Under the pieces are notes generated by a model, which was not told the DNA's origin, did not search any database, and saw only the letters and a program-made list of their open reading frames with translations. A program made the position numbers and the translations under genes. From Paragonimus westermani (Eukaryota; Platyhelminthes; Trematoda; Plagiorchiida; Troglotrematidae), in assembly GCA_008508345.1 (NCBI GenBank), contig QNGE01002674.1, positions 1 through 64,000 on the forward strand: DNA of 64,000 bases. Direction: 5' to 3'. Shown here in pieces: positions 10,160-55,204 of the stretch. How positions within the stretch are numbered: the first letter of the stretch is position 1; each line of letters begins with the position of its first letter.

Positions 10160-10725
10160 CTGAAAGGCGATCATTGAAAACAGGGTGTAGCACCGCTCTT
10201 GGGGATTAAAGTGAATGCCAAGGAAAAAGTAAGATTACTCGTTTAATGCAATTTTAGGTAATCGAGAATCAAGCAAAGCTTCGAAGCGATACCCAGAAGT
10301 GCTGCCGACGACCTCAGGTGGAAGGCTGTTCCAATAGTTAATAACCCTGTAAGAAAAGAACTGCCGCCTAAGAAATGTCCTCGTCGGCCATCACCATTCG
10401 CTACAGTGAAGAACTGTTCTATGAGACCTACTCTAAAGAAGAGGTGAGTATTAAATCACCAAGGAGTCTTCGAAATTCAAGTGGGTACAGGTCAAGAATT
10501 TCAAGTCGAGGCTCGTAAGTAACATTAATCAGGCCCACGACCACCTTGGTAGCCGCGCGCTGGATACGCTCAACAGCTAATATGTCTTTCTTCAGGCGGC
10601 TATACACGACTGACTAGTGGCATAGCAGTTGTGCTCCTCAGTGAATAACTTAATTGCAAAAGTCTTATAGCTGTGAAACCCTCTAACAGGATTTTTCAAA
10701 CCTGAAAGAGCGGTTCTTACAAATG
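10160..10725 (-). pseudogene. CR1-like RT C-terminus nested in Gypsy gag
   Basis: Minus-strand translation gives [19 protein letters not shown], then [11 protein letters not shown] and, after frameshifts, FFTVANGDGRRGHF. These are the 'xRRLRGDLI' and 'RRxxxF' blocks near the end of CR1/Jockey-type RTs. The segment is strongly similar to the plus-strand RT tail at 35,100-35,470, so both come from one family. It lies between two pieces of one plus-strand gag, so it appears to have inserted there, 5' truncated as is usual for such elements. Confidence 0.8.
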
Positions 10726-20787: not shown

Positions 20788-20995
20788 AAGATATCCGCAC
20801 TAAATGTAGTACGAATGAAGTTGAATAGTTTGGGTGTCGTGTTTAACATGTTATTGATAAACTGGTTGGGAATAACACAACGTTACGAGCAAGTCGTAAT
20901 ACTCTACTCCTGAGGAAGGCCACCCGAGGTGGTTGAAACGTAGAGTATTACAACTTGCTCGTAATGTTGTGTTATTCCCAATTTGTTTATCGAAT
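20788..20995 (+). repeat. Penelope-like element terminus with 40-bp hairpin
   Basis: From GTAAGATATCCGCA at 20,788 to the hairpin this matches the reverse complement of the PLE end at 55,081-55,192. Arms 20,868-20,907 and 20,940-20,979 are exact-length inverted repeats with 38 of 40 pairs. The 32-nt centre holds CTGAGGA, a CCACC/GGTGG stem and GAAAC, a hammerhead-like core. The sequence after the hairpin follows the opposite PLE strand for about 15 more bases. It is a solo terminal piece; no PLE coding sequence flanks it. Confidence 0.75.
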
Positions 20996-32434: not shown

Positions 32435-32514
32435 GGCTTCGTAGCTCAGATGGTAGAGCGCTTGCCGCGTTGTGGCATGCTGTACCTGTCGCTGATTCGA
32501 ATCCAGCCGAAGCC
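32435..32514 (+). repeat. tRNA-like sequence (SINE head), family 2
   Basis: GGCTTCG at the start pairs perfectly over 7 bp with CGAAGCC at the end, as an acceptor stem. GCTC/GAGC form a D stem with A-box TAGCTCAGATGG; TGCC/GGCA form a 4-bp anticodon-like stem with loop GCGTTGT; GCTG/CAGC form the T stem around the B-box GATTCGAATCC. The 80-nt length, an unusual stretch between anticodon and T arms, and a C before the supposed anticodon argue for a tRNA-derived repeat over a working tRNA. A diverged relative lies at 58,902-58,966. Confidence 0.65.
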
Positions 32515-32582
32515 CTGACTTTTCACAGTTGAGTCTCATCTGAAATCATAAATCTGCCACACTGCTTACTAGTAATATACGT

Positions 32583-37055: not shown

Positions 37056-37119
37056 ATTTATGACGTCAGTTACACATATACAGGGTTAACCCCGTATATG
37101 TATAACTGACGTCATAAAT
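37056..37119. repeat. 64-bp near-perfect palindrome
   Basis: Each base from 37,056 pairs with its partner to 37,119 around the centre GGGTTAACCC, with only two mismatched pairs of 32. Both arms contain TGACGTCA, itself a palindrome and a known CRE/ATF site. It would form a 32-bp hairpin without a loop. No transposase or second copy is visible. Confidence 0.85.
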
Positions 37120-40100: not shown

Positions 40101-41575
40101 ATATGAGCATACTTGCCATCGTATTTCACCAACGTTTGGGATCATTTGAGGAACCCTGATTGGCATCTCGTCGAGGCTGGTTCCGGAATGATGAGACAAC
40201 TTGATAGAGGCGCGTAAAGTTGACTTCAGTTTATGAGTAACTTACCGTTAGCATGAGTTTGTGTTCGAGAGGGACGAATATTGAACCTACTGTTGAAGGT
40301 CAGTCGTCCGACACTAATTCCCAATGAATGCAGGATACACTTCTTGACTTGAGAGTGTGATATACCGCTAATCGAAACGCATTTTTAGGTTTCTTGATCT
40401 GCCCGTTTGGATGTAAGTTGTGGTCCGTGAGTTTACTGGGTCGTTATTTTTCTCCGTGATGGAAACTCTTCAGACACGATGGTTCTACTTTTACTTGAGT
40501 GGACATAAACGGGGTTTGTTGGACGTCAATTACAGCTGAAAGACACTCTTGACAGCCATAGATGTCATACCTGGTCGAGTAAAGGACAACGGGGATCTTG
40601 AGTATTCGTTAAACCATTATCGGCAACGGGAAGGTGTTTTTTGAAAACTGCCTTCATTATATCAAAAGTCATAACCGCTTTAATGAAGGTTACGTGTGAC
40701 AGGTTGAATAAACTTGGCTTCAACTCTGTGAATACTGAACAATGCTCAGTGATAGGTTTCGCTTCTTCGGAATAGTAAGATGAGTTTTTGGACAGTATGG
40801 AATGTGACATCCGAAAAAACGTCCTGGTAACAACGAACCATATAGCCTTTCGGAATCATATTTTAGGTTGGGGAAACTTAATGCTCATAACGTTAATAGC
40901 CCGGTTTTCCCCTGTGCGATGCGTGACGCCAAGGCTGTTCTACAAAAGTTTGAGACTCCGCCCCTTCTATAATGGGCATCACTGCACCTAAAAACGTCAC
41001 AACTCCGACCAGTAATCGGTTGTTAATGGGTGCTCCGTAAGTAGCAACTCCACTTTGATAGCTCTGATTATGGTGTAGGCTTACTTTCCGGCAGAAGATT
41101 ATTGTCTTTTCCTCGGTGTAAAGGTCATAGCGTAAACTACAGCAGGCCTTCCATTCTGTACTGAGGTGTCAGAGGTAGTATAACCCCAGTCTAAATGTGA
41201 CTCAAGGTGGTTGGCAGCGACTTCACGTAGATTGTCTTCAATAACTCAGTTGCTACGTGAACATTATTTAATACGGAAATGGTTGTAGTTCTCACAAGCG
41301 AATAAATTTGATCAGAAAAGTGAGATCCACGAGGAATGTTAGGCGGATGGGCCCACTACGCTTCGTTGTGATTTATTGTCTTGGTCACTATCACAACGAC
41401 TTTGAGTCTGATCAGAAGGTACTGTGGTTGGGACCGCCGCATGGCTTGGAATATCATAGCAGGAAACGTTACTGAAAGGCTTAAGATTGATATGAAATAA
41501 AACAAAACACTGAAAATAGTATGAATGCATTTCCGCCATTGACTGAAGCACGCTGTTATTTCGAATAGCATTTCT
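37130..41575. other. Long unassigned region
   Basis: About 4.4 kb without a recognisable gene or internal repeat. The longest frames (37,448-37,158 minus, 96 residues; 40,132-39,797 minus, 111 residues, basic) have no motif I can name. Part of it may be intron or very old repeats. Confidence 0.4.
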
Positions 41576-41579
41576 AGTC

Positions 41580-41930
41580 AGCAATTTGAGTGATCACGTG
41601 GAATACATCCAAGCAGGCGACATCTACCCACTGCACTCAATGGAACAGTCAGGTCCTTCATATTTCGTTACCACGTTGTTGCTTGACCACCATGTGATTT
41701 TACCTAACTTTTGGTGGTATTATTATTTAATGCCCAGTGCAGAAACCGTTAAGGTGACACGGAGTACCTGACCCAACCAGCACAGTACATACAACGCGAT
41801 TACTTGACCAATTGGTCACGCATCCTGAATGTTACGGAATGCGTACCGGCGGCCGACCAAGTTACGCATGCAATCAGTCCACTTGATGTGGGTTAATTGG
41901 CGGAGACACTGATGGTCAAATACAGCAAGT
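41580..41930 (+). repeat. Interspersed repeat family B, copy 1
   Basis: Aligns with 52,478-52,830: shared order of TTATATTTCGTKAYC-like, TTGCYTGACCACCAYG, CCAATTGGTC, GCATCCTG and TTGGCGGAGACA blocks. About 350 bp, same orientation, 10.9 kb apart. No coding content. Possibly LTR or SINE-like. Confidence 0.7.
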
Positions 41931-43804: not shown

Positions 43805-44000
43805 ACAGGCGATGCCATAGTCTAGCGAATAAGTGTTTGGACTGCAATCTGCTGCTTATTCGCAGATAGTGGGTTCGATTCACTGGGGTGCATGGTGCTA
43901 ATGTTATCCAGCTGGACCGAAACAGCTGTCCACCATTTTGCTTGTGGTCACTGAGACCAATTGTCTACAAAAACCTTTGTTTACCGTCACGATGAGACTG
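43805..44000 (+). repeat. tRNA-derived repeat with eroded hammerhead (family 1, copy B)
   Basis: The head (about 43,812-43,890) has an A-box-like TAGTCTAGCG, a small variable-arm hairpin CTGC/GCAG and B-box GGGTTCGATTC, resembling a class II tRNA. Directly after it, ATGGTG (43,892-43,897) pairs with CACCAT (43,931-43,936). Between them are CTAATGT in place of CTGATGA, GAAA at 43,919-43,922, and CAGCTGT then C, giving the GUC cleavage triplet. The changed core (the essential G and final A lost) predicts no cleavage. The copy at 50,690 is homologous along its length. Confidence 0.7.
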
Positions 44001-48650: not shown

Positions 48651-48889
48651 GCCCATGTCTGCTTTTATTTCCGATCTTGGCTTTCTTAACAGTTCATCAT
48701 CAGTAGACATCTTCGCCGCGAGTTGGATTCGAACTATTGTCCAGGTTCTCATGAAGCATCTCTGATCTCTTTTCACCTCGCGGTGAGCATTGCTTACGAG
48801 CGAGAGATTACAGATGATAATTCCGTCGCATTTTATGTAAGCTCAATGGCGCATTGTTCTACGTGGTTGCTTCATAAAAGCGCGCACCA

Positions 48890-49041
48890 CAGTTCATTTC
48901 ATCAGGACAGCAAGAAGACATACATTGCGAGATGCAAGCCTTTCGTTTATTCTCATCAGTCGGTTACATAAAACATTCGGTTATTTAGATTAAGCGCGTA
49001 TCGTCAAAACAATAAAATGAACGAACTTCAATTGGTTGCAT
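48890..49041 (-). repeat. PLE terminal repeat, left inverted arm
   Basis: Reverse complement of 49,701-49,840 with few differences, flanking the plus-strand PLE frame. On the minus strand it holds CTGATGAG, AATAAAC, GAAAGGC and TTGCATC, the same hammerhead-like core as the right arm but with T changed to G in the short stem III, which breaks one pair. Confidence 0.8.
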
Positions 49042-49696
49042 GACCGACAGCCTACAGCCTGAGGAGGAGCTCTTAAAGAGTGTTCTGTTTGCGAATGGGT
49101 ACCCGGCCAAATTTATTGAAATTTATTGCAAGGAACGAGTGACTGCCTCCCAACCACAGTTTGTACCGAAAAAACAGGTTTTTATCAACCTTCCTTACAC
49201 AGGTGACCACAACGTTACCGATGTAAGTCGAAAGTTGAAATCGGTCATTGATCGCACATATCCCGCGGCGGAATTGCGCTTGTTACTCTCCACCCGTAGG
49301 ATGAGCCTTCACTGCCCCGATCGTTCTTCTTCGGAAAACTCTGCCTCTCACGTTATCTACCAGTTCACCTGCAGTTGCGGTGATTCATACATCGGCAGAA
49401 CGGACCGAAATTTACGACAGAGGAAGGCGGAGCACATTCCCAAGTGGCTAGTGCAAACAATGTTTCAAGGCGGGTCAGCACACCAAAACTCAAACAGAAA
49501 TCCGGCGTCTTCGATCGCCAAACCCCTAATCGCAACAAGTCATGTGGTTGACGCCGACACTTCGTTCACGGTCCTATTGCGCAATCGCGACCCTAGATTG
49601 TTAGCGTTCTCCGAGGCAATGTTGATCAAGCGTCACGCACTGGCCCTTTATTGGCAAAAGGTGTTGACGCAATCAATTTCGTTGCCATGGCAGTGA
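49040..49696 (+). mobile_element. Penelope-like element, RT tail and GIY-YIG endonuclease
   Basis: A 218-residue frame, open and unbroken. The N-terminal half (LLKSVLFANGYPAKFIEIYC, then VFINLPYTGDHNVTDVSRKL) is the region between RT thumb and endonuclease of PLEs. The GIY-YIG domain follows: FTCSCGDSYIGRTDRNLRQR with S-Y-I-G, the Arg at +6 and a second Arg, then KAEHIPKWL, HVVDADTSF and AFSEAMLIKR with the catalytic Glu. The RT palm is absent, so it is a 5'-truncated copy. It is flanked by inverted terminal repeats (48,890-49,041 and 49,701-49,840). Confidence 0.9.
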
Positions 49697-49700
49697 AACC

Positions 49701-49840
49701 TGATTGCAACCAAGTGAAGTTCGTTCAGTTCATTGTTTTGATGCTACGCGTTACCGAATGTTTTATGTAACCGACTGATGAGAATAAACGAAATGCTTGC
49801 ATCTCGCAATGTATGTCTTCTTGCTGTCCTGATGAACTGG
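49701..49840 (+). repeat. PLE terminal repeat, right inverted arm, with hammerhead-like core
   Basis: Pairs with 48,890-49,041. Contains CTGATGA (49,775-49,781), G...C flanking AATAAA, GAAA (49,790-49,793) and ATG-CTTG-CAT as a short stem III whose A-U closing pair is followed by C (49,803), the expected cleavage base. Next to it CGA/TCG can form the base of stem I. Stem II has only the single G-C pair, which is unusual and may mean a decayed ribozyme. A second CTGATGA lies at 49,829. Confidence 0.65.
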
Positions 49841-49849
49841 ATAAAGGGA

Positions 49850-50190
49850 ACTCAGTGTTTCAAACTTCGCTTGTCGGTCTTCTTGAGGACGTTCCGTATG
49901 GATGTGACCTCATAAGAGCGCCGCCTAATTGTAGTGGTTCTTTTCTGAACAGGCCGGCGGAAAAGTGTTTCAAGTGATGTTCATGCACTCTATCCGACAG
50001 CCGCCTGGTAGTAAGAGCAAACAAATGAGTACACACAATAATTGGTTGTAAAACGTGATGGTTTGCCTTTGAGTTGTCACATGATAACGGGTTTTGAACG
50101 GGAACTGACGCACAGTTGGGCGGTAAGGTAGGCTGTTTCGACTGACTTTCTCAGGTTTCTTGAGGTAATTTCAGTCATGAGATCTCCATT
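49850..50190 (-). pseudogene. Second Penelope-like endonuclease fragment, opposite strand
   Basis: Minus-strand translation gives RSKPVI, QLKGKPSRFTTNYCVYSFVC, then after a frameshift TTRRLSDRVHEHHLKHFSAG, the GIY-YIG domain's first strand and 'TTRRLSxRVxEHxxxHF' helix. The tyrosine-glycine part lies at the frameshift. It is tail to tail with the plus-strand PLE at 49,040-49,696. Confidence 0.7.
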
Positions 50191-50689: not shown

Positions 50690-50890
50690 CTTCCACATTT
50701 CTTTTGATACCTTGGCAAGCAGTTGGACTACAATCTGTAGCTTATTTACGGGTCATGGGTTCGACTCACCAGCGTGCATGGTGCTGATGAGACCCAACTA
50801 GGTCGAAACGGCTGTTGACCATTTCACTGGTGGTTACTAGAATCAGCTCTTTTCAAAAATCCTTTCTGTGGCCGTTGTCTGCGCATTTGC
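50690..50890 (+). repeat. tRNA-derived repeat with hammerhead (family 1, copy C)
   Basis: tRNA-like head with B-box GGGTTCGACTC at about 50,757-50,768. The hammerhead-like part is 50,778-50,822: ATGGT (stem I), CTGATGA (50,784-50,790), GACC/GGTC stem II with loop CAACTA, GAAA (50,805-50,808), stem III AC/GT with loop GGCT, U at the cleavage position, and ACCAT closing stem I. One pair next to the core is mismatched (G-G). Core bases are intact, unlike copy B. Homology to copy B continues beyond (GACCATTTCACTGGTGGT versus CACCATTTTGCTTGTGGT). Confidence 0.75.
50778..50822 (+). ncRNA. Hammerhead ribozyme, type I, slightly degenerate
   Basis: Has CUGAUGA, a 4-bp stem II, GAAA and a minimal stem III. 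The cleavage triplet reads G-U-U; the hammerhead rule is N-U-H, so U is allowed but weak. A G-G mismatch at the base of stem I probably lowers activity. Prediction by eye only. Confidence 0.6.
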
Positions 50891-51555: not shown

Positions 51556-51952
51556 ATTCGTTCTCCCAATAAACGGTGTTGCCACGCCTGTCCTCTTTCT
51601 CGCTTTTTTGCCATTTGATTGAGAGCGTAACAAAAGGAACGACTCAATAAACTGGAAATGATATGAATGCACATAAGGCTCACTTTCACTTGTAGCCCGC
51701 TTGTTTTTTTCAAGGTCCACACACTTCCATGTAGAATGTTGATGTATTGACGTAGTTATTTGTGGTCCGGTCCCGTCTTCTCCCTTTCTTTTCTTCTCCT
51801 TTTTCTTGATCGGGGCTTGCTTCTTTTCTCATGATTGTGCAACATTTAAGCGTCAGCAAGGATTACCGATGTTTTCAAGTTGACCATCACTCACATTTGA
51901 TCGCAGCGTTCGCATTCAGATAGACTTTCCAGCTAGCCTCTTTCGAAAAGAA

Positions 51953-51997
51953 GCACTAGACTCGAGTTTCGCTCTCATTAGAGCTCGTCAGTAGTGC
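51953..51997 (-). ncRNA. Hammerhead ribozyme, type I, complete core
   Basis: Minus-strand order: GCACTA, CTGACGA, GCTCT-AATG-AGAGC, GAAA, CTCGAGT, C, TAGTGC. Stem I GCACTA/TAGTGC is 6 of 6 paired; stem II GCTCT/AGAGC is 5 of 5; the core C-U-G-A-N-G-A and G-A-A-A are exact (variable position is C); A15.1 pairs with U16.1, stem III is minimal (AC/GU around UCGA, or three pairs), and the cleavage triplet is GUC. Minimal stem III is typical of retroelement-borne hammerheads and often implies dimeric cleavage. It self-cleaves RNA, probably processing multimeric transcripts. Confidence 0.9.
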
Positions 51998-52001
51998 ATA
52001 T

Positions 52002-52078
52002 CCTTGCCACGGCCGGGATTTGAACTCCGGACATTCCAATCATGAGGCAACCGTGTTAACCACTGCGCCATTGACCTC
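52002..52078 (-). promoter_or_regulatory. tRNA-like pol III promoter of hammerhead repeat
   Basis: Minus strand: A-box TGGCGCAGTGG at 52,060-52,070 and B-box GGAGTTCAAATCC at 52,016-52,028, about 32 bp apart, as in tRNA genes. CCGG/CCGG flank the B-box as a T-stem. It ends five bases before the hammerhead, so a transcript from this internal promoter would contain the ribozyme. The overall cloverleaf is imperfect, so a working tRNA is unlikely. Confidence 0.8.
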
Positions 52079-52273
52079 ACATTAGGCACGACCGAATCAT
52101 CAAATCTGAACGCTCAACCACTCTCGCTTGTGAGCAATGATCAGGTTGCCCGATCGTCTCGAGAGGAGACACAGTTACTGCCTGTTAACTCCAATCGATA
52201 ACCCCGCGATTAGGACTTCCGAGACAGGTCGAGATCACAGAACTCATTAAACCTGCAAGGCGATATTTTAGAT

Positions 52274-52380
52274 TACTGATGAGTAGTCGGGGATTTGGTT
52301 TATTTTCAAGTTGACCATCACTCACATATGATCGCAGCGTTCGTATTCAGATAAACCAAATCCTCGACTACTCATCAGTG
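52274..52380. repeat. 29-bp inverted repeat around monomer tail copy
   Basis: 52,274-52,302 and 52,352-52,380 pair over 29 bp with two mismatches (ACTGATGAGTAGTCG...). The 49-bp spacer is the second copy of the family A tail (compare 51,872-51,923). The arms include CTGATGAG but no GAAA follows, so they are not a ribozyme as they stand. Confidence 0.8.
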
Positions 52381-52477
52381 ATTACCTATGTGTTTGTCTT
52401 CGTTGCTGTTGATTATACTGGTGAGGTACGCTGTTGTCTGCAACACACTGTCATTGCGAACAGTGTTTCTCAGCGGC

Positions 52478-52830
52478 GATTTGAGCAATCGAGAATACTC
52501 CAATCGATTAAGCAACGTCCACACATTTGACTCAAGGGAATAGTTAGTGTCTTTATATTTCGTGATCCCTTTGTTGCCTGACCACCACGCGGTTTTATCC
52601 GTGTGTTATTGGTCTCAGTGAACAGCACAACAGGTGACATGCGGACTACGCGGTCCGACCATCACAGGTTGTGCAGCGTGATTAGGTGTCCAATTGGTCG
52701 GGCATCCTGGGCGTTCCGTAATACCCGTTGGCATATGGCCATATGGTTCACGCGACTAACCCCCTTGTTGTGGGCCAATTGGCGGAGACAGTGTTTGATG
52801 CACTGCGTGAGTGACACGTGTTAGACAGAC
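52478..52830 (+). repeat. Interspersed repeat family B, copy 2
   Basis: Partner of 41,580-41,930. Its head lies 100 bp downstream of the inverted repeat that ends the hammerhead monomer region. Confidence 0.7.
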
Positions 52831-53410: not shown

Positions 53411-53422
53411 TACACTAGTTTT
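53411..53422 (+). repeat. Target-site duplication of PLE, left copy
   Basis: TACACTAGTTTT occurs here and at 55,193-55,204, exactly outside the two ends of the inverted-repeat PLE. Confidence 0.7.
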
Positions 53423-53535
53423 TGATAAACAGATTGAGAGTAAAAACGTTACGAGCAAGTTGTATTACTCTACGTTTCAACCACCTCGGGTGGCCTTCCT
53501 CACGAGTGTTGTAATCAAAATCACAATGACAGAGG

Positions 53536-54051
53536 TCACATGAGATTTGCCGTGGTTAGGTCAGTTTGTGCTGCACCTGACCGGATTGGTCTAATCCTTT
53601 GCCCATTAAGTGGGGGCGAGACAGATGTAGATAAGACCCGTCCGTGTCTGGTGCTGTTTATCCATCCACGTAACACAGCAGACAGGGGTTTGCTATCATT
53701 GCGATTAACACGAGCGTGCTGTGTGTAAATGATGAGAGCTTCAGCACAGCACCGCTCCGCATAAGAAGTTAGACCCTTGTGAATCACTCGAGCTTGATCA
53801 AAACCTACGTTTTGATCCTCTGACAGTGCATGTAGTGCAATGTCCGAATCCTTCTCTAGCTTCTAAAGTTGATAGGCATGTTTAGGAGGAAACCTTGTGC
53901 GCCTCTTGTGTTCGGCAACACGTACTTTCAGTTGTCTACTTGTCTCTCCAATGTAGCTGACATTGCAGTCACCTCATTTGATTTCGTGAACGCAGTCTGT
54001 CTGGTCGCCCATAGAAATTGGATCCTTAGGATGTGTTACCAGTCATTCTAA
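53536..54051 (-). pseudogene. PLE GIY-YIG endonuclease, inverted arm copy
   Basis: Minus-strand copy of the endonuclease half read at 54,500-55,013. The GIY-YIG start (CNVSYIGETSRQLKVRVAEH) and the downstream AEALIIYTQHARVNRN lie in the same order. It lacks the upstream RT-tail region that the plus-strand copy has in the spacer, so it cannot make a full domain. Confidence 0.8.
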
Positions 54052-54179
54052 GGTATCGTCTAACCGAAATACAGTCCGGATAGCGTACTCAGATAGAGTG
54101 GAGCGGATTTTTTCAAATGTTTGTTCACGATACGGTATTTGCACAATAGACTGAGATAATCCATTCTGGCCGTTATCTC

Positions 54180-55013
54180 AACTTCAACTCGACCCATCCA
54201 ATCGGTATGAAGAGAGCATTCATCAAATCACTCGTCAACAGAGCTAATGAGATCTGCATCATTGAGCTCTCCATAACGACAGAGATTTCTCATATCAAAG
54301 AAATGCTAGCGGCTAATCACCATCCGAACGCATTTACTGAGAAAACAATTAAGCGCGTGTCCACTTTGGAAGAAACCAAAACGACCAGAACTTTCAAGTC
54401 TACTGTGCAAATACCGTATCGTGAACAAACATTTGAAAAAATCCGCTCCACTCTATCTGAGTACGCTATCCGGACTGTATTTCGGTTAGACGATACCTTA
54501 GAATGACTGGTAACACATCCTAAGGATCCAATTTCTATGGGCGACCAGACAGACTGCGTTCACGAAATCAAATGAGGTGACTGCAATGTCAGCTACATTG
54601 GAGAGACAAGTAGACAACTGAAAGTACGTGTTGCCGAACACAAGAGGCGCACAAGGTTTCCTCCTAAACATGCCTATCAACTTTAGAAGCTAGAGAAGGA
54701 TTCGGACATTGCACTACATGCACTGTCAGAGGATCAAAACGTAGGTTTTGATCAAGCTCGAGTGATTCACAAGGGTCTAACTTCTTATGCGGAGCGGTGC
54801 TGTGCTGAAGCTCTCATCATTTACACACAGCACGCTCGTGTTAATCGCAATGATAGCAAACCCCTGTCTGCTGTGTTACGTGGATGGATAAACAGCACCA
54901 GACACGGACGGGTCTTATCTACATCTGTCTCGCCCCCACTTAATGGGCAAAGGATTAGACCAATCCGGTCAGGTGCAGCACAAACTGACCTAACCACGGC
55001 AAATCTCATGTGA
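54180..55013 (+). pseudogene. PLE RT tail and GIY-YIG endonuclease
   Basis: The frame 54,207-54,506 carries the RT tail (FIKSLVNRANEICII, IKEMLAANHHPNAFTEKTIK, and FKSTVQIPYREQTFEKIRST), ending at a stop near 54,504. Past it the GIY-YIG domain continues: GDCNVSYIGETSRQLKVRVA, then AEHKRR, HALSEDQNVGFDQARVIHKG and YAERCCAEALIIYTQH with the conserved Glu in the late helix. A few stops interrupt it. An RT palm is absent. The domain would nick DNA for target-primed reverse transcription. Confidence 0.9.
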
Positions 55014-55046
55014 CCTCTGTCATTGTGATTTTGATTACAACACTCG

Positions 55047-55125
55047 TGAGGAAGGCCACCCGAGGTGGTTGAAACGTAGAGTAATACAACTTGCTCGTAA
55101 CGTTTTTACTCTCAATCTGTTCATC
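55047..55125 (+). repeat. PLE terminus with hammerhead-like core
   Basis: TGAGGA, CCACC-CGA-GGTGG and GAAAC lie in the order seen at 20,908-20,939, but the base before TGAGGA is G here, so the essential C of the core is lost in this copy. After GAAAC, GTAGAG...CTCGTAACG could fold back on itself. The mirror copy is at 53,424-53,502 on the minus strand. Confidence 0.6.
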
Positions 55126-55192
55126 GATAACATGTTAACCACGACGCCCAAACTGTTCAATTTCGTTCGTACTAAATGTGGTGCGGATATCT

Positions 55193-55204
55193 TACACTAG
55201 TTTT
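55193..55204 (+). repeat. Target-site duplication of PLE, right copy
   Basis: Second copy of TACACTAGTTTT. Confidence 0.7.

Follow-up and report, generated by a model that had tools for sequence, protein, structure and literature searches.

What is an intact hammerhead ribozyme doing directly behind a tRNA-like unit at this locus: is it a single ribozyme kept in place, or one copy of a mobile family, and if the latter, what moves it? The window, that is, the whole stretch of 64,000 nucleotides of Paragonimus westermani DNA that was analysed (contig QNGE01002674.1), carries the two features on its minus strand:

51953 to 51997, minus strand: type I hammerhead ribozyme (Rfam RF00163, 34.7 bits, and strict motif search)
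52003 to 52078, minus strand: tRNA-like unit (A box and B box; alignment to tRNAs)

The initial annotation had proposed a complete hammerhead at this position, to be checked against the Rfam covariance models, and both the proposal and the check were borne out: RF00163 matches 51953–51997 on the minus strand with 34.7 bits against a gathering score of 34 (E = 6e-5 for the window), and RF02275 (HH9), which covers a longer stretch, scores 35.3 bits, far below its own cut-off of 52. Read from 51997 to 51953, the motif contains CUGACGA, GAAA and a GUC site, with all core bases present; stem I has 6 bp (GCACUA/UAGUGC), stem II has 5 bp with a 4-nt loop, and stem III is short and palindromic. Cleavage is predicted after the C at 51959, between GUC and UAG. 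A strict pattern-and-pairing search found one complete hammerhead motif in the window, and one in 600 first-order Markov windows.

The hammerhead starts five bases 3' of the tRNA-like unit, whose A box (TGGCGCAGTGG) lies at 52070–52060 and whose B box (GAGTTCAAATCC) lies at 52027–52016, both on the minus strand. These positions confirm the order of A and B boxes followed by a ribozyme that had been likened to the schistosome Sm-alpha repeat. A strict B-box pattern occurs three times in the window, in the element around this hammerhead (E1) and in two further elements described below (E2 and E3), each time directly upstream of a hammerhead or of a hammerhead remnant. Among the tRNA sequences compared, the unit aligns best with Gln (z 9.7), closely followed by Arg-ACG (z 9.2); neither ARAGORN nor the Rfam tRNA model RF00005 calls a tRNA in it, and ARAGORN calls none at 26 family loci. 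Boxes and alignment thus justify the term 'tRNA-like', whereas the fold does not, no cloverleaf being recognised. Elsewhere in the window, ARAGORN calls a tRNA-Asn gene at 32435–32515 (plus strand), to which the Rfam tRNA model gives 40.8 bits.

With at most three mismatches allowed, the E1 core of 33 nt matches at 10,368 places (5171 + 5197) in the 823,446,929-base genome, and the reversed pattern, used as a control, at none. All 100 of the core matches listed, out of the 10,368, are exact, and among the matches listed at least four same-strand pairs are spaced by exactly 431 bp. When 12 further E1-family loci were compared with RF00163, nine scored 34.7 bits and three had no match at the gathering score. 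The feature therefore belongs to a large family in which identical cores are numerous. A chance hammerhead, or one selected for a function at this single locus, for example in the regulation of a host gene, could account for the exact core preserved here, but it is hardly credible in view of 10,368 near-identical cores genome-wide and of a locus that is an ordinary insertion with a target duplication (TSD). Because the core is identical in all 100 matches listed, its exactness at E1 is not special; a young, abundant family explains the preservation, so that nothing here indicates selection on the E1 locus. The suggestion of a 'recent or selected copy' in the initial annotation therefore survives in its first half, since E1 is probably of recent origin and not a fossil, and lacks support in its second.

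Two things escaped that annotation: a second, higher-scoring hammerhead at 50778–50822 on the plus strand, and the 507-bp insertion that contains the feature, the parts of which are the following:

51873 to 52379, minus strand: whole insertion E1, 507 bp, from mapping on the 431-nt unit
51861 to 51872: TSD copy 1, GATTACCGATGT, 11/12 identical to copy 2
52380 to 52391: TSD copy 2, GATTACCTATGT, pairing with copy 1
51872 to 51925, minus strand: 54-nt repeat at the end of the direct arm, at the putative reverse-transcription start site i (unit position 87)
52303 to 52356, minus strand: second copy of the 54-nt repeat (partial tandem), 94% identical, 431 bp away
52272 to 52302, minus strand: optional 31-nt tail between sites i and ii, unit 88–118, from the unit mapping
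52351 to 52382, plus strand: inverted second arm ending at site ii, with tail (inverted repeat; unit 87–118)

E1 is composed of a 32-nt inverted arm, one full 431-nt unit and a 54-nt partial second unit, and its flanks read GATTACC[G/T]ATGT (12 bp, 11/12 identical). No decayed tandem dimer was found at the locus beyond the 54-nt overlap. A pair of interspersed repeats, 66% identical, lies at 52434–52793 and 41539–41911, one copy adjoining E1.

With position 1 set at the base after the cleavage site, the tRNA-like unit occupies positions 312–387 of the 431-nt unit and the 5' part of the hammerhead positions 393–431, so that the order is tail, tRNA-like box unit, hammerhead. The GC content of the unit is 0.476. 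Its longest reading frame has 53 codons and other frames have up to 51; there is no reverse transcriptase or GIY-YIG frame among them, and Pfam returned nothing for ten translated frames. The unit can thus be at most a non-autonomous client of a Penelope-like element. The 53-codon frame runs across both start sites, and a coding origin of the tail module was considered and dropped because other frames reach 51 codons. Folding of the unit, also as a circle, was not clearly above that of shuffled sequences (z -1.7; 9 of 100).

How copies of this unit enter the genome was read from a mapped sample: 92 of the 100 listed places were fetched, and 85 loci were mapped once five overlapping ones had been dropped, or 86 with the copy in the window. 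These loci were picked for an exact core, which biases their 5' ends. They gave 104 clusters, from which 12 with no segment at 82% identity were dropped; 62 one-arm outward and 30 two-arm head-to-head clusters were kept. Two classes of ends were defined, site i at unit 82–96 and site ii at unit 104–125. The 3' ends of the one-arm clusters fall at these two sites in 56 of 62 cases (35 at site i, 21 at site ii), with six elsewhere; the sites are 31 nt apart and an AC-rich 31-nt stretch (unit 88–118) lies between them. The points of 5' truncation are scattered. Tandems are a minority among the mapped copies, and eight of the 62 one-arm clusters are longer than one unit, reaching 859 nt as partial tandems. 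Clean flanks, together with a segment of at least 90% identity, were found at 73 insertions. TSDs scoring at least 9 flank 30 of these, the mean with permuted flanks being 0.95, and the other 43 score below 9; the duplications have a median length of 12 bp and are 72% AT. At the 3' ends of three loci (L003, L008 and L024), short runs of A or TA follow GAAAA at site i, as though the primer had slipped or the target consisted of short repeats. Tandem 431-bp dimers would also suit a satellite-like repeat, with the hammerhead as a passenger, that multiplied through extrachromosomal circular DNA or recombination; the TSDs at 30 of 73 clean insertions, the two preferred 3' ends and the 5' truncation make such an origin very improbable.

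The two-arm inserts add an asymmetry. Both outer ends fall in one of the classes in 20 of the 30, and 19 of these combine site i on one arm with site ii on the other; one is ii/ii and none is i/i. From the one-arm frequencies, the i/ii combination would be expected in 47%, and the probability of at least 19 of 20 with independent ends is 6e-6 (18 of 19 and 1.3e-5 without the window's own copy). The one-site-per-arm pattern was noticed in these same data and not predicted beforehand, and 10 of the 30 two-arm inserts have at least one outer end in neither class.

These ends bear on whether the family is a tRNA-derived SINE with a hammerhead, of the Sm-alpha kind, which pol III would transcribe from the element's internal boxes and a LINE would insert by target-primed reverse transcription, the arms being twin-priming inversions. 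LINEs also yield 5' truncation, inversion and TSDs, and the truncation and the TSDs of about 12 bp in our sample would suit such an origin, as would the A and B boxes that precede the ribozyme and the tRNA-like score against known tRNAs. Sm-alpha itself is filed as SINE-like with boxes A and B in the literature (PMC2770079, PMC2576457). However, the inserts begin further upstream than pol III could start within the unit, continue beyond the TTTT that follows the core, and may exceed one unit, and they terminate 3' at either of two sites within a longer unit. Twin priming would place the outer end of the inverted arm variably, whereas both outer ends lie at the two sites in 20 of 30 two-arm inserts. 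Moreover, a tRNA-derived SINE begins with its tRNA-related promoter, and the copies mapped here extend upstream of it with scattered 5' ends. We therefore consider a SINE of this kind, mobilised by a LINE, unlikely.

As for the RNA template, inserts of up to 859 nt cross the cleavage point without interruption. Of the 29 segments of two-arm inserts in which the exact core is missing, 15 cross this point and one starts no more than 3 nt from it; over the cleavage site, the template was therefore frequently uninterrupted, as either a ligated circle or an uncut multimer. None of the 62 one-arm clusters has its 5' end at the cleavage point, although this is weak evidence because the loci were selected for an exact core. 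Copies also reach upstream of the tRNA-like unit and even round the unit again, and 88 of 93 exact cores are followed by TTTT within 20 nt. Since pol III transcripts tend to stop at TTTT, a plain pol III SINE transcript is an unlikely template for the mapped insertions, and the A and B boxes may not be the source of the inserted RNA. Hammerhead mutants of the Anolis Penelope element still insert in vitro (PMC11167929), so that cleavage may not be a requirement.

The window also contains relatives of E1:

50723 to 50865, plus strand: E2, a second tRNA-like/hammerhead family (hammerhead at 50778–50822; RF00163, 40.7 bits)
43837 to 43978, plus strand: E3, a decayed relative of E2, with the core destroyed and the GUC site and stem I intact
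48784 to 48875, plus strand: E4, head and upstream region of a decayed element related to E1, from alignment
49886 to 49971, plus strand: hammerhead-plus-tail part of E4, core lost, 55/86 identical to E1 without gaps

The E2 hammerhead departs twice from the expected sequence at the scissile site, with U17 and a G.G at the first pair of stem I. The exact patterns of the E1 and E2 hammerheads had no match, 0 and 0, in viral contigs. Judged by the relationships of E1 to E4 and of E2 to E3, the window holds two families of this layout, and the two parts of E4 were apparently split by a Penelope-like insertion. A separate 64-nt stretch at 37056–37119 is 94% identical to its own reverse complement.

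Penelope-like elements are themselves present in the window, two of them as two-arm insertions:

53423 to 55193: Penelope-like two-arm insertion, inverted arms of 735 bp, 99.5% identical
20789 to 20990 (about): a second, older insertion with two arms, assigned to the family of the first by nucleotide similarity and ending at the same two points

In the first, the left arm ends in ...TTTATCA and the right arm extends about 62 nt further; an exact 11-bp TSD (ACACTAGTTTT) at 53412–53422 and 55194–55204 encloses it, and the whole of 53412–55204 is a recent two-arm event. The older insertion has a TSD of about 14 bp, 13/14 identical, the TSD and the boundaries having been read by eye. This family thus shares with the 431-nt unit both unequal arm ends and TSDs, although the tail is about 62 nt instead of 31. 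A third Penelope piece, at 48895–49839, has inverted ends whose arms stop at about the same site; its reading frame has 16 homologous hits, two of them named from Paragonimus (65% and 42% identical). An ATG lies inside CTGATGAG at 49775 in this piece, as described for Anolis Penelope, and GAGAATAAACGAAAT, also within it, was spotted by eye to resemble GAAAATAAACCAAAT, the retrozyme's sequence at start site i (13/15).

Our sample shows the match to the hammerhead model, the number of copies, the unit of 431 nt, the pair of end sites, the asymmetry of the arms and the TSDs. Their probable explanation is that E1 is a copy of a 431-nt non-autonomous retrozyme with a layout like that of Sm-alpha, mobilised in trans by a Penelope-like element. 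Transcripts would run through one or more units from a candidate promoter and would be cut by the hammerhead, the products probably being ligated into circles, or else the RNA might stay an uncut multimer. A Penelope-like reverse transcriptase/GIY-YIG endonuclease would bind the tail module and nick both strands of AT-rich DNA, and reverse transcription would begin internally on the RNA, the start lying at unit 87 for one DNA end and at about unit 118 for the other. Copying would extend over a variable distance, at times over more than one round, giving truncated, partly tandem or head-to-head inserts, and insertion would often leave target duplications of about 12 bp. Catalysis, the circular template and Penelope as the partner are the parts of this model that we infer. 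We are, by a modest degree, inclined to generalise it: animal hammerhead retrozymes would be clients of Penelope-like reverse transcriptases, with a start inside a circular or multimeric ribozyme RNA and one of two sites 31 nt apart used at each DNA end of a given break, and 'SINEs' of the Sm-alpha kind would then be mobilised by Penelope and not by LINEs.

Penelope-like elements are a strong candidate partner of animal retrozymes on the grounds of co-occurrence, shared hammerheads and tandem copies, according to one report (PMC7229834), and another describes no conserved motif in retrozyme repeats that would reveal the partner (PMC7761336). A search of the open-licence literature, covering titles and the starts of abstracts and therefore no proof of absence, found no report of Penelope start sites in retrozyme insertions. 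To this the present analysis adds insertion traits described for Penelope in a retrozyme family, at 86 mapped loci of one genome. Because these traits are of the Penelope kind, a partnership so far only suspected can now be tested with one protein and one RNA. If the one-site-per-arm rule applies genome-wide, it would also give a mechanistic handle on the odd inverted ends of Penelope.

How does the 431-nt unit compare with the systems already described? Boxes A and B are coupled to a type I hammerhead in Sm-alpha and Sj-alpha of schistosomes (PMC2770079, PMC2576457), and Sm-alpha-like SINEs have been assigned to tRNA-Gln-TTG (PMC8490949). The 431-nt unit shares with them the combination of pol III boxes and a type I hammerhead, a very high copy number and a tRNA-Gln-like head. 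It differs in that its tRNA-like unit lies inside a permutable unit and that its head is nearly as Arg-like; the likeness considered here is that of the layout.

In animals, retrozymes consist of short hammerhead repeats in tandem and are expressed as circles. Cervera and de la Pena (2020, PMC7229834) ascribe to the metazoan non-LTR kind a type I hammerhead in repeats of 150–450 bp, dimers, a GC content below 50%, TSDs longer than 4 bp and no reverse transcriptase of their own. These latter traits recur in the unit described here, a short type I hammerhead repeat with a period of 431 nt, inserts of up to 859 nt and a GC content of 0.476. In contrast to them, it carries A and B boxes and Penelope-type start sites, and in the mapped sample its single, 5'-truncated and head-to-head copies outnumber tandems.

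For Penelope elements, PMC3846280 describes an optional 31-bp tail on one inverted pLTR, partial tandems, an adjacent inverted pLTR and TSDs of 8–10 bp, and discusses self-priming as the origin of head-to-head arrangements. In Anolis Penelope, two adjacent internal sites of the RNA serve as starts of reverse transcription and are separated by a tail of 30–40 bp, both DNA strands are cut and extended, and the targets are AT-rich; an internal start lacking homology to the target sets Penelope elements apart from all others (PMC11167929). The 431-nt family likewise shows a tail of 31 bp on one inverted arm, partial tandems, an inverted end piece and short TSDs at AT-rich targets. Unlike Penelope, it has no reading frame of its own, its hammerhead is matched by the ordinary type I model, and it contains a tRNA-like unit. 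The arms also differ, since site i is used on one and site ii on the other in the 431-nt unit, whereas the start sites of Anolis Penelope in vitro are alike on both strands (PMC11167929). The distance from the start to the hammerhead cut, by contrast, is closely similar: 85–92 nt in Anolis Penelope, from the numbers given in PMC11167929, and 87 nt for site i of the 431-nt unit.
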